Positions 33,963 through 62,853 of a stretch of DNA of 64,000 nt are shown in pieces; within the stretch, counting starts at the first letter, position 1, and each line of letters opens with the position of its first letter. The translations under genes and the position numbers were made by a program. The notes under the pieces were generated by a model. It did no database searches. It saw only the letters and a list, made by a program, of their open reading frames with translations, and was not told the origin of the DNA. The DNA comes from Halomarina salina (GTDB taxonomy: Archaea; Halobacteriota; Halobacteria; Halobacteriales; Haloarculaceae), in contig NZ_JALLGW010000001.1 of the NCBI RefSeq assembly GCF_023074835.1, positions 1,054,001-1,118,000 on the forward strand, read 5' to 3'.

Positions 33963-34679
33963 ATGTTCTCCGAGTTCGAGGTCGTCCCCGCGGTGGACGT
34001 CCAGGACGGGCAGGTCGTCCAGCTAGTCGGCGGCGAACGCGGCACCGGGACGGAGTACGGCGACCCGGTCGAGGCGGCCGAGCGGTGGGTGGAGGCCGGC
34101 GCGCGGACGCTCCACCTCGTCGACCTCGACGGGGCGTTCGAGGGCGAACGCGTCAACGCCGACGCCATCGCGGCCGTCGTCGATGCCGTCGACGTTCCCG
34201 TCCAGATGGGCGGCGGCATCCGGACGGCCGAGGATGCACGCACCCTCCTCGACGCTGGCGTCGACCGGGTCATCCTCGGGACCGCCGCCGTCGAGAACCC
34301 CGACATCGTGGCCGAGGTGAGCGACGACTACCCCGACGGCGTCCTCGTCAGCCTCGACGCGAAGGGCGGCGAGGTGGTCGTCTCCGGGTGGACCGAGGGC
34401 ACCGGCCTCGACCCGGCCGAGGCCGCCGAGCGGTACGCGGACCTCGGCGCGGCGGGCATCCTCTTCACCGACGTCGACGTCGAGGGCCAACTGGAGGGCG
34501 TCCGCACCGACCCGGTCCGACGACTCGTCGAGGCCACCTCGATTCCCGTCGTCGCCAGCGGCGGCGTCGCCACGCTCGACGACGTGCGTGCCCTCCGGGG
34601 GACGGGCGCGGCGGCGGTCGTCGTCGGCACGGCGCTGTACGAGGGACGGTTCACGCTCCGCGAAGCGATGGACGCCTGA
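33963..34679 (+). CDS. hisA: Phosphoribosylformimino-5-aminoimidazole carboxamide ribotide isomerase
   Basis: A 238-residue TIM barrel. The catalytic aspartates lie in VVPAVDVQDGQVVQL and ILFTDVDVEG, the phosphate loops are GGGIRTAED and VVASGGVATLDDV. These distinguish HisA (histidine synthesis step 4, an Amadori rearrangement) from HisF. Length is normal. A TTTACG element about 26-31 bases before the ATG suggests a leaderless transcript. Histidine genes are scattered in haloarchaea; hisB lies 2 kb downstream, with tryptophanase between. Confidence 0.93.
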   Translation: MFSEFEVVPAVDVQDGQVVQLVGGERGTGTEYGDPVEAAERWVEAGARTLHLVDLDGAFEGERVNADAIAAVVDAVDVPVQMGGGIRTAEDARTLLDAGVDRVILGTAAVENPDIVAEVSDDYPDGVLVSLDAKGGEVVVSGWTEGTGLDPAEAAERYADLGAAGILFTDVDVEGQLEGVRTDPVRRLVEATSIPVVASGGVATLDDVRALRGTGAAAVVVGTALYEGRFTLREAMDA

Positions 34680-46663: not shown

Positions 46664-46790
46664 ATAAACATTCGCCGTTCGGAATTAGGAAAAACGGCTG
46701 CTCAGCGCATCCTCTCTTCAGTTGAACAGCGTTTCAGTTCTATCGCATGGTAACGCTTATTGGTCGGTTTGTTCATGGTTGCTAGCAGTC

Positions 46791-48617
46791 ATGGTACAAG
46801 TTGCCGTGTTAGTCGCGCTCTCACTCGTAACGTTCACCGTCGGGTATCTCGCGTACTCGCGGTACCTGTCGCAGTTCGTCGAACTCGACGACGCCAGGGA
46901 GACGCCAGCACACAGGATGGAGGACGGGCAGGAGTACGTCCCGTCCCAGAAGTCGGTCTTGCTAGGGCATCACTATTCGAGTATCGCGGGGGGCGCTCCT
47001 ATCGTCGGTCCCATCACGGCCAGCGCGGCGTTCGGGTGGCTACCGGCCATCCTCTGGATCGCCATCGGGAACCCGCTGTTCGGCGCGGTCCACGACTTCA
47101 TGTCGCTGTCGGCCAGCGTCCGACACGAGGGGAAGTCCATCGGCTACATCATCGGCGAGTACGTCGGCCAGCGGGGGAAGGACATGCTGCTGTGGTTCGC
47201 CTTCCTCACCATCATCCTCGTCATCGCCGTGTTCGCGCTGGTCGTCGCCGTCGTGTTCGACGTCTACCCGTCCTCGGCGACCGCGAGCCTGCTCTACATC
47301 ATGCTGGCGCTCGTGTTCGGGGTGTACCTCTACCAGCTGAACCTCCCGTTCACCGTCGGGGCCGTCGCGTTCGTCGCGATGGTGTTCGGGGGCGTCTGGG
47401 TCGGGTTGCAGTACCCCATCGCCATGGTGGACACGGGGAACCTCCCCGAGGGAACCATCGTCCTGCTCGGAGCGGCCGAACAGTGGAGTTGGCTCCCGCT
47501 GACGGAGGCGCAGAACGCCAACCGCGCGGCGTGGGTGCCCGTGGTCGTCATCTACGGGTTCATCGCGAGCGTCCTGCCGGTCTGGGTGCTGCTCCAGCCC
47601 CGTGACTTCCTCACGTCGAGCCTGCTGTACACGGGCGTCGGCGCGATGCTGCTCGGTACCATCGTCGCCGCCGTCGTCGGGTTCGAGGCCATCACCGTCG
47701 CCGGGAACGAGGTGACGAGTCTGGAGACGAACTACGAGGCGTTCCTCGGGTTCAACAGCGAACTCGGTCCCATCTTCCCCTTCCTGTTCGTCACCATCGC
47801 CTGTGGGACCATCAGCGGCTTCCACGCGCTGGTGTCGTCGGGGACGACGGCCAAGCAACTGAACAAGGAGACCGACGCCCGGAGCATCGGCTACGGCGCG
47901 ATGCTCGGCGAGGGCCTGCTCGCGACCACCGCGGTCGGTGCGTTCGCCATCATCGGGTCGGGGGACTTCCCGTCGGGGCTGGCCGGTGCGCTCGGCAACT
48001 TCCCGGCGGGCGGCGCGGCGATGATATCCGTGTTCGGCGTTCCGCCCCAGGCCGGAGCGGCGTTCATCGGCCTGGTGTTCGTCAGCTTCCTGCTCACCAG
48101 CACCGACACCGCGGTCCGACTCGGTCGCTACATGATGGACGAGATCGTCGGCGTCCCCGAGACGTCGACCCAGCGCTTCGCCACGAACCGGTACGCCTCG
48201 GCGGGCCTCCTGCTCTGTCTGCCCGCGTACCTGCTGGTCGGCAGCGGGTCGTGGTCGACGCTCTGGCCGCTGTTCGGCGGTGCGAACCAGACGCTCGCGG
48301 CACTCGCGCTGCTCGCCGCCACGCTGTGGCTCGCCAACTGGGACGACTCGAAACAGCTCGTCTCGACCGGCCTGCCGATGGCGCTGATGCTGGTCGTCAC
48401 GCTGACGGCGCTGCTGTGGATCGGCATCCTCCGCGCGCCGGACGCCGCCCTCACGGCCCTGAACGACGGCCAGACCGTCACGTTCGTCTCGTCGGTGCTC
48501 CAGAGCCTCATCTCGCTGACGCTGGCCGGGCTGGCGGTCGCCATCGGCTGGATGGGCTACAAGAACATCAACCGGGTCAGGGACAGCTACACCGGCACGA
48601 CACCGAGCGACGACTAA
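46791..48617 (+). CDS. cstA: CstA-family carbon-starvation/peptide transporter
   Basis: A 608-residue membrane protein with about fourteen helices. Family blocks are VPSQKSVLLGHHYSSIAGGAPIVGP, WIAIGNPLFGAVHDFMSLSASVRHEGKSIG, and FHALVSSGTTAKQLNKETDAR. CstA proteins take up peptides or pyruvate when carbon is short. The start is the ATG giving MVQVAVLVALSL; GCTTATTGG about 30-36 bases upstream and a TTTAAATAAA element at 46660 mark an AT-rich promoter. Three hairpins follow the stop codon. Confidence 0.9.
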   Translation: MVQVAVLVALSLVTFTVGYLAYSRYLSQFVELDDARETPAHRMEDGQEYVPSQKSVLLGHHYSSIAGGAPIVGPITASAAFGWLPAILWIAIGNPLFGAVHDFMSLSASVRHEGKSIGYIIGEYVGQRGKDMLLWFAFLTIILVIAVFALVVAVVFDVYPSSATASLLYIMLALVFGVYLYQLNLPFTVGAVAFVAMVFGGVWVGLQYPIAMVDTGNLPEGTIVLLGAAEQWSWLPLTEAQNANRAAWVPVVVIYGFIASVLPVWVLLQPRDFLTSSLLYTGVGAMLLGTIVAAVVGFEAITVAGNEVTSLETNYEAFLGFNSELGPIFPFLFVTIACGTISGFHALVSSGTTAKQLNKETDARSIGYGAMLGEGLLATTAVGAFAIIGSGDFPSGLAGALGNFPAGGAAMISVFGVPPQAGAAFIGLVFVSFLLTSTDTAVRLGRYMMDEIVGVPETSTQRFATNRYASAGLLLCLPAYLLVGSGSWSTLWPLFGGANQTLAALALLAATLWLANWDDSKQLVSTGLPMALMLVVTLTALLWIGILRAPDAALTALNDGQTVTFVSSVLQSLISLTLAGLAVAIGWMGYKNINRVRDSYTGTTPSDD

Positions 48618-48624
48618 CAACCAC

Positions 48625-48744
48625 CTTTTGTACCCGACCGGGGGTTCGCTCGCTGCGCTCGCTCACCCCCGGAGGGCAAAAGCTGGAGCATTACCAGAAC
48701 GGCTTCGCCGTTCTGGTTAGTAGCCAGAAATCGCTGATTTCTGG
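48625..48744. repeat. Three consecutive hairpins after cstA
   Basis: Hairpin 1 (48638-48672) has an 8-bp stem CCGGGGGT/ACCCCCGG and an outer CTTTTG/CAAAAG pair at 48625-48682. Hairpin 2 (48694-48716) is a perfect 10-bp stem around TTC. Hairpin 3 (48724-48744) is a perfect 9-bp stem, CCAGAAATC/GATTTCTGG, around GCT. Centres of hairpins 2 and 3 are 29 bp apart, the same pitch as in the repeats after hemB, and hairpin 3 shares its outer arms with one of them. They may end cstA transcription from either strand. Confidence 0.85.
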
Positions 48745-48881
48745 CGACAAAAGGATTCCTCGTTCACTTCGCGCACTCCGAGCGCTCTGTTCACTCGTCA
48801 CCCCACTCACTCGCTTCGCTCGTTCGCGGTACAATCGATTAGAGCTACCACCACCGCACAGCACCGCTACCGTACCACTCC

Positions 48882-61578: not shown

Positions 61579-61731
61579 ACTCTGAAACACCGCCAGTTGT
61601 AGTCTCGCTGTCGAGATAACCCTGTCGCGCGTCGGGTTCGGCGACTCTCGGAAGGCGGTGACGGCCGGGCGAACGCGGTCGGTGTGGGCGACACCGACAA
61701 CGGCTTTCACCGCCCGCCCCGACGGCGAGAT

Positions 61732-62730
61732 ATGGACTTCACGCAGCGACCCCGTCGGCTCCGGACCGACGGACTCCGACCGCTGGTCAGCGAGACGTCG
61801 CTCGCGCCGTCGGACTTCATCGCGCCCGTGTTCGTCGACGCGACGACGGACGACCGCGTCCCCATCGAGTCGATGCCGGGCCACGACCGCGTCCCCGTCG
61901 ACGAGGCCGTCGGCCGCGTCGAGGAGGTGCTGGAGACGGGCGTCGAGGCGGTGATGCTGTTCGGCATCCCCGAGTCGAAGGACGAGGTCGGGTCACGCGC
62001 GTACGCGGAGGACGGCGTCGTCCAGCGGGCGATGCGCGACGTGACGAGCGAGACGGACGCGTACGTCGTCGGCGACGTCTGCCTCTGCGAGTACACGAGC
62101 CACGGCCACTGTGGCGTCGTCGAGGACCACGCGGCCGAGGACCCGACGCTCACCGTGAAGAACGACGAGACGCTCGACCTGCTCGCGCGCACGGCCGTCT
62201 CGCAGGCCGACGCGGGAGCCGACATGGTCGCGCCCTCCAGCATGACCGACGGGATGGTCGGCGCGATTCGGGAGGCACTCGACGCCGCGGGCCACGACGA
62301 CGTGGCTATCATGAGCTACGCAGCGAAGTACGAGTCGGCGTTCTACGGCCCGTTCCGCGACGCGGCCGACGGCGCGCCCGCGTTCGGCGACCGGCGACAC
62401 TACCAGATGGACCCCGCGAACGCCCGCGAGGCGATGCGCGAGGTCCGCCTCGACGTCGAACAGGGCGCGGACGTGCTGATGGTGAAACCGGCGCTGCCCT
62501 ACCTCGACGTCGTCAGCGACGTCCGCCGGGAGTTCGACCACCCCGTCGCGGCGTACAACGTCTCCGGGGAGTACGCGATGCTCCACGCGGCGGCCGAGAA
62601 GGGCTGGCTGGACCTCGACGCGGCCGCCCGCGAGTCGCTGCTCTCCATCAAGCGCGCCGGTGCCGACCTCATCCTGACGTACTTCGCAGAAAGCGTTGCC
62701 GCAACGCTTTCTGCGGACAGTCGGACGTAG
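61732..62730 (+). CDS. hemB: Delta-aminolevulinic acid dehydratase
   Basis: A 332-residue HemB. Schiff-base lysines are K199 ([14 protein letters not shown]) and K252 ([11 protein letters not shown]); C117, C119 and C127 ([11 protein letters not shown]) are the zinc-type ligands. It condenses two aminolevulinates to porphobilinogen for haem and other tetrapyrroles. The ATG chosen gives [11 protein letters not shown], the usual opening. The last 15 residues ([15 protein letters not shown]) and the TAG stop are encoded by the first unit of a 57-bp tandem repeat, so its C-terminus is probably not ancestral. Confidence 0.93.
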
Positions 62731-62853
62731 TCCGACGCTTTTGCCGAGAGCGTAACGGCATCGCTCTCGGCAACCAGCCAGACGTAGTCTGGCGACTTCG
62801 CGGAGAGCGTCGCGTCGTCGCTCTCGACGGACAGCCGGACGTAGTTCGGCGAC
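62683..62853 (+). repeat. Three 57-bp tandem repeats, each a double hairpin, at the hemB 3' end
   Basis: Units at 62683-62739, 62740-62796 and 62797-62853 align without any gap. Each has a long hairpin A and a short hairpin B. A1 has a 14-bp perfect stem, A2 12 bp, A3 7 bp plus 2. B1, B2 and B3 are GTCGGAC, GCCAGAC and GCCGGAC, each followed by GTA and its complement (one G-T pair in B3). Changes in one arm are matched in the other. The first unit encodes the hemB C-terminus; each unit has the TAG in the B hairpin at the same place. Centres alternate at 28 and 29 bp. Confidence 0.9.

Follow-up and report, generated by a model that had tools for sequence, protein, structure and literature searches.

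Behind the gene for carbon starvation protein CstA, a haloarchaeal genome (69% G+C; 4.46 Mb in 10 contigs) carries a patch of hairpins. The locus raises the question of what these hairpins are, and whether they are related to the repeats at the hemB gene in the same window, i.e., the whole stretch of 64,000 nucleotides analysed. An earlier note on this DNA treated the patch at 48638-48744 as one feature and placed it with the hemB patch in one palindromic family, both lying at gene 3' ends.

Hairpins behind cstA and hemB

The cstA gene was recognized at 46722-48617 on the + strand (Pfam PF02554, E 9.5e-131), directly 5' of the hairpin patch. The twin-hairpin element, i.e., TTACC..GGCGACA of 59 nt, was located at 48691-48749 (+) between convergent genes; alternatively, it can be read as 57 nt flanked by CA at 48689-48690 and CA at 48748-48749. 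Hairpin A (hairpin 2 of the patch) has an 11-bp stem at 48693-48717 (+; 48692-48718 with one flanking base per side) and the loop TTC, reading ACCAGAACGGC TTC GCCGTTCTGGT. Hairpin B (hairpin 3), at 48723-48745 (+), has a 10-bp stem with the loop GCT, reads GCCAGAAATC GCT GATTTCTGGC, and is followed by GAC. The hairpin region folded with z = -7.6 against its own shuffles, and the covariance model R1 matched the element at 48689-48749 with 71.2 bits. No Rfam family was matched at the twin-hairpin site. Elsewhere in the window, one marginal Rfam match, i.e., the Guanidine-II riboswitch at 33977-34026 on the - strand, scored 32.1 bits where 32 is the cut-off, and was probably due to chance. A C/D-box or K-turn RNA was considered as a candidate; UGAUG is present on the reverse strand of the element but no D box was seen.

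Hairpin 1 (48638-48672, +) lies between ACCTTTTG and GCAAAAG, outside the insertion. It is a separate and older feature, because the congeners G007 and G002, both without hairpins 2 and 3, have a hairpin 1 with other arms. The patch is therefore not one feature throughout; hairpins 2 and 3 form the unit. Window positions 48624-48690, together with L029, L055, L103, L113, and L243, were also seen to share a larger dispersed repeat, ACCTTTTn..hairpin..GGGCAAAAGCTGGAnCAAAAGGATTCC, with the cstA copy inside it. In the genus, this repeat follows several genes that are unrelated to each other, whether or not the twin hairpin is present, and it may be mobile or terminator-like in its own right.

The hemB gene, encoding delta-aminolevulinic acid dehydratase, was assigned to 61684-62730 (+) by Pfam (PF00490, E 3.1e-141) and by translation, and its last codons form hairpin A1. 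Unit 1 of the hemB patch (62685-62736, +) comprises A1, a 14-bp stem with loop CCG in the hemB frame, and B1, in which the stop codon lies. Unit 2 (62741-62796, +) consists of A2, a linker, B2 GCCAGACGTAGTCTGGC, and GAC, and unit 3 (62800-62853, +) is a decayed copy of the hemB unit. Against shuffles, the patch folded with z = -6.1. HemB of the source genome and of G007 has the same 11 protein letters, and four synonymous differences make up two compensated pairs in A1. Because the 5' arm of A1 overlaps hemB codons that are similar in hemB copies without the element, tandem duplication of host sequence may have built part of the patch. In HemB of L238, L239, and L240 (genomes G002, G001, and G038), two match blocks were observed, separated near residue 150 by additional residues. 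These form a charged insert in G002 and G038, e.g., of the DHGHCGVL-ESEAKERWERLRRDD type, with no evident hairpin.

The two patches agree in pitch as the earlier note had read it. The centres of hairpins 2 and 3 are at 48705 and 48734, i.e., 29 apart, and the hemB centres at 62700, 62728, 62757, and 62785 are spaced by 28, 29, and 28. The shared outer words AGCCAGA...TCTGGCGAC were recovered at 48722-48748 behind cstA and at 62776-62796 at hemB. These arms were commoner than composition predicts and lay on hairpins. GCCAGA-N-TCTGGC occurred twice in the window against 0.03 expected, solely at the cstA and hemB hairpins, and the proposed genome-wide search, run as AGCCAGA-N(1-20)-TCTGGCGAC, gave six matches, all perfect stems with differing centres, and none for the reversed pattern. 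Over 59 genomes (source included), 33 matches were counted against one for the reversed control, and most of the matches belong to the two-hairpin unit. The proposed single palindromic family is thus supported. The patches represent different subfamilies of it (CATCA/TTAGCA at cstA, GGCA/ACCA at hemB), which have the pitch, hairpin B, and a GAC at the 3' side in common. The copy number in the source genome is modest, because hairpin pairs of whatever kind numbered only three in a 400-kb chromosome sample, the cstA copy among them; the genome as a whole gave seven strong matches of the CATCA type plus about 20 distinct weaker matches.

Anatomy and spread of the element

The element has the form CATYACC-[A]-GGTTAGYAGCC-[B]-GGCGACA, with two stems, 3-nt loops, and centres 28-29 nt apart. 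The cstA type is ordered [CATCA]-hairpin A-[TTAGCA]-hairpin B-[GACA]; in sister subfamilies, the start is GACGTT or TGCCGAG, the link from A to B is GCCA, GGCA, ACCA, or CGCACA, and the end is GAC. Loops are almost always of 3 bases, stems are 7-11 bp and mostly 10 bp, hairpin B opens with G-C, and the termini TCACC and GGCGA are an imperfect 5-bp inverted pair. Tandem A-B-A-B units were found at L006 and L137, and three units in hemB. Another repeated frame of about 200 nt with long outer inverted arms, GAAAGGGGC ... GTAAGCACGCGA..GCGCGCAGCGAGTCGCAGG ... GGGGCTTTCGAGGTGT, was noticed at L063, L059, L065, and L218, and some of its copies hold a hairpin pair of the GTTC/GCCA type.

The stems were evaluated on 33 distinct gap-free genomic 59-mers. 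In these, 98.6% of the cells pair, and pairing fell to 43% or less when partners were slid by 1-3 columns as a control. Cells with both sides changed numbered 78 against 20.6 in shuffles, which give no strict probability for 33 59-mers of shared ancestry. Both-side changes were found in 10 of 20 stem pairs, and the covariation is chiefly at loop-near pairs. Template switching that re-perfects palindromes would also yield compensated stem changes, without selection.

Model R1 was trained on the CATCA subfamily alone, because stem A fell out of register when all subfamilies were aligned together, and other subfamilies are under-counted by the model. Strong copies are scored on their reverse strand as well, so that raw match counts include doubles. 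Of the 11 training rows of R1, the last (GCATCACAGCGAGC...) is a generic example and not a genomic copy, which adds slight noise to the model and leaves the covariation test unaffected. R1 copies were detected in 150 of 292 Halobacteria genomes, in 53 of 77 genera, and in six of the eight genomes of the genus. When one genome per GTDB species was scanned for the exact pattern, 64 stretches were recovered; by title all are haloarchaeal, with Halorubrum, Halobellus, Halolamina, Halocatena, and Halomarina among the taxa. Copies are numerous in Halorubrum and Halobellus. No exact element match was found in viral contigs.

Insertion sites and movement

At the cstA 3' flank, filled and empty alleles could be compared. 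The filled flank of the source genome reads GGAGCA, the 59-nt insert TTACC..GGCGACA, and AAAGGATTCC. The site is empty in two congeners (L243 and L244), i.e., CTCGAACA/AAAGGATTCC in G007, with the join GAACA/AAAGGATTCC, and CTGGAGCA/AAAGGATTC in G002, with the join GAGCA/AAAGGATTC. Judged from these alleles, a precise 59-nt insertion at CA separates the source genome from the two congeners and is recent there. In some cases, empty sites could be precise losses rather than sites that were never filled.

Empty sites were searched by comparing the joined flanks of 82 CATCA-type copies with the collected loci. Further gap-free empty sites were chiefly at the 3' end of tnpB in three IS605 lineages, i.e., GACAAGCCC/CA, GGAAGCCC/CA, and CATCAAAGCCC/CA, and the best filled/empty pair, L196 and L189, showed 98.9% identity over 92 nt with one CA left. 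The CA target is followed by CC in 50 of 83 CATCA-type copies, and 33 of the 83 directly precede an IS605-like right end. Many copies share a single position close to the tnpB 3' end, and all 15 copies near a detected tnpB share the tnpB strand. In three divergent tnpB genes (L026, L208, and L185) that are otherwise intact, inserts of 53, 53, and 56 nt break the frame at the same codon; omitting exactly 53 or 56 nt restores open frames of 406, 454, and 438 aa. A second site within tnpB is also used by the element. An archaeal bulge-helix-bulge intron at the tnpB site was rejected by hand, since the insert start is not complementary to the 3' flank.

Copies of a sister subfamily, with the hemB patch on its side, were found within nine protein families, i.e., HemB and eight assigned by Pfam. 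The latter are amino-acid kinase (PF00696), TrpA, prolyl oligopeptidase, DEAD_2 (XPD-like) helicase, DUF5787, class II tRNA synthetase, which is probably of the glycyl type by its domains, DUF460, and FNR-like oxidoreductase. Every protein-borne copy lies in sense and in the same frame, encoding the short polar peptide AE..SAGSQN...RSGD or a variant, whereas the other frames of the element would give arginine-, cysteine-, or aromatic-rich peptides. Insert-free orthologues exist for the amino-acid kinase and TrpA, the host gene staying open as in RPE-like in-frame insertion; if the copies are translated, the insert peptide predicted for TrpA or the amino-acid kinase of the G007 relative is AEGTSAGSQNAARSGDG. 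In TrpA of three species, the stems were kept by compensatory change, i.e., GCCGAAG/CTTCGGC against GCCGAGG/CCTCGGC, and likewise GCCAGAC/GTCTGGC against GCCGGAC/GTCCGGC in the second stem. The trpA of G007 (L260) holds a further in-frame insert, GSEARSASEDASGGTASEGA, which contains a GAGGCGCGAAGCGCCTC palindrome and is absent from other species of the genus.

From these comparisons of sequence, the cstA twin hairpin very probably represents a single copy of a mobile, non-autonomous DNA element, which is about 57-59 nt long and widespread in Halobacteria. The precise boundaries, the single dinucleotide target, the preference for mobile elements, and the absence of coding capacity suggest that it is moved in trans. 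The element sits precisely at CA, mostly CA/CC, with CA on each side. Since the stems are maintained, the hairpins may be the structure that a trans-acting enzyme recognises, probably in single-stranded form. Copies would persist where harm is small, i.e., in intergenic 3' flanks, other mobile elements, and protein loops and tails.

A functional 3'-UTR RNA element, in which the hairpin pair stabilises or terminates cstA and other transcripts and is selected at gene ends, is unlikely. Both window patches do lie after or over stop codons, the cstA copy is between convergent genes, and compensatory changes maintain the stems. However, the orthologous cstA 3' flank of other species of the genus lacks the twin hairpin, many copies are within coding genes or tnpB, and the T run expected of an intrinsic terminator was not found 3' of hairpin B at cstA on the + strand, where GACAAAAGG follows. 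The position at gene 3' ends holds for both window patches and not as a general rule, as copies also occur inside ORFs and IS605 tnpB.

It is slightly less likely still that the twin hairpin is native to the omega-RNA or right end of haloarchaeal IS605, with solo copies as remnants of dead insertion sequences. The copies at IS605-like right ends and their uniform orientation along tnpB would fit this reading, but the same IS lineages occur without the element and with a single CA left, the second tnpB site is also occupied, and solo copies end at the same two boundaries, while no IS sequence was seen by eye in the flanks outside them. Chance palindromes of a GC-rich genome can be practically dismissed; although perfect hairpins of 9 bp are no rarity (the window has 25 entries, simulations about 4-19), the control counts of the full pattern, the few hairpin pairs per 400 kb, and the filled/empty pairs at cstA and IS605 loci argue against them.

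For the mobile element, the IS200/IS605 Y1 transposase was considered as the mover and is unsupported. Y1_Tnp was matched in 106 of 150 genomes with copies and in 96 of 142 without (Fisher p = 0.61), i.e., no association, in a test limited by draft genomes and by past presence of the gene. The source genome has four Y1_Tnp matches, and 44 of the 150 copy-bearing genomes, including G002, G007, G011, and G030, have none. Tentatively, the twin hairpin might be moved, and perhaps precisely removed, by a non-Y1 enzyme that acts on the folded strand and is specific for CA; the copies that break the tnpB frame would then be recent, or their excision would take place in DNA or RNA.

Relation to known palindromic repeats

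The family is best called an archaeal variant of small palindromic mobile repeats and is apparently undescribed. In the open-access literature, no earlier description of the twin hairpin was found, though one may exist elsewhere; PATEs, SMRs, and REPs were found instead. The family has meaning as a REP/RPE-like palindromic mobile element that extends over an archaeal class, shows clear empty sites, and inserts at one fixed dinucleotide. It enters core enzymes in frame, i.e., HemB, TrpA, amino-acid kinase, and tRNA synthetase, and it adds a structured insert to the 3' part of halophile tnpB, where TnpB omega-RNAs are expected. Because cultured relatives carry the twin hairpin, the way in which such transposase-free palindromes move, a question of long standing, becomes open to experiment.

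PATEs are short, non-coding elements with palindromes near the ends that resemble IS605 end palindromes, a 4-5 bp target, and 52-bp terminal-only versions (PMC3119063). The twin hairpin is likewise short, non-coding, palindromic near its ends, and haloarchaeal. No IS605 end sequence was seen by eye in the unit, and its presence does not track the Y1 transposase. GTAG REPs with RAYT transposases are also hairpin repeats at intergenic and some genic sites, but the twin hairpin has no conserved GTAG tag and no link to Y1_Tnp genes.

CGTC-tagged REPs, including Rickettsia RPE-4 and RPE-6, are short palindromes, often paired, some in ORFs, with no dedicated transposase (PMC3733652). They have 8-9 bp stems opening with A-T pairs, loops of 4-5, and a CCA tail, head-to-head dimers predominate, and the survey reported them in bacterial phyla only (PMC3733652). 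The twin hairpin shares the tag, as GACG or GACA follows hairpin B in nearly all listed copies, i.e., CGTC or TGTC on the other strand. It differs in its mostly 10-bp stems, the G-C opening of B, the loop of 3, and the tandem of unlike hairpins A and B in fixed order.

The small mobile repeats SMR-A and SMR-B of Haloquadratum walsbyi are short, transposase-free mobile repeats of haloarchaea whose mobilisation is unexplained (PMC3119063). SMR-A favours IS605-type elements and PATEs as targets, without target duplication; it is homogeneous in sequence, measures about 110 bp, and has inverted terminal repeats that are prominent, the shortest SMR being 80 bp (PMC3119063). The twin hairpin is set apart from that description by its 57-59 nt, two hairpins, variable stems, and weak 5-bp end similarity, whereas it is similarly short, haloarchaeal, transposase-free, and prone to IS605 targets. 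In behaviour, the family is closest to the Haloquadratum small mobile repeats and the Rickettsia RPEs.
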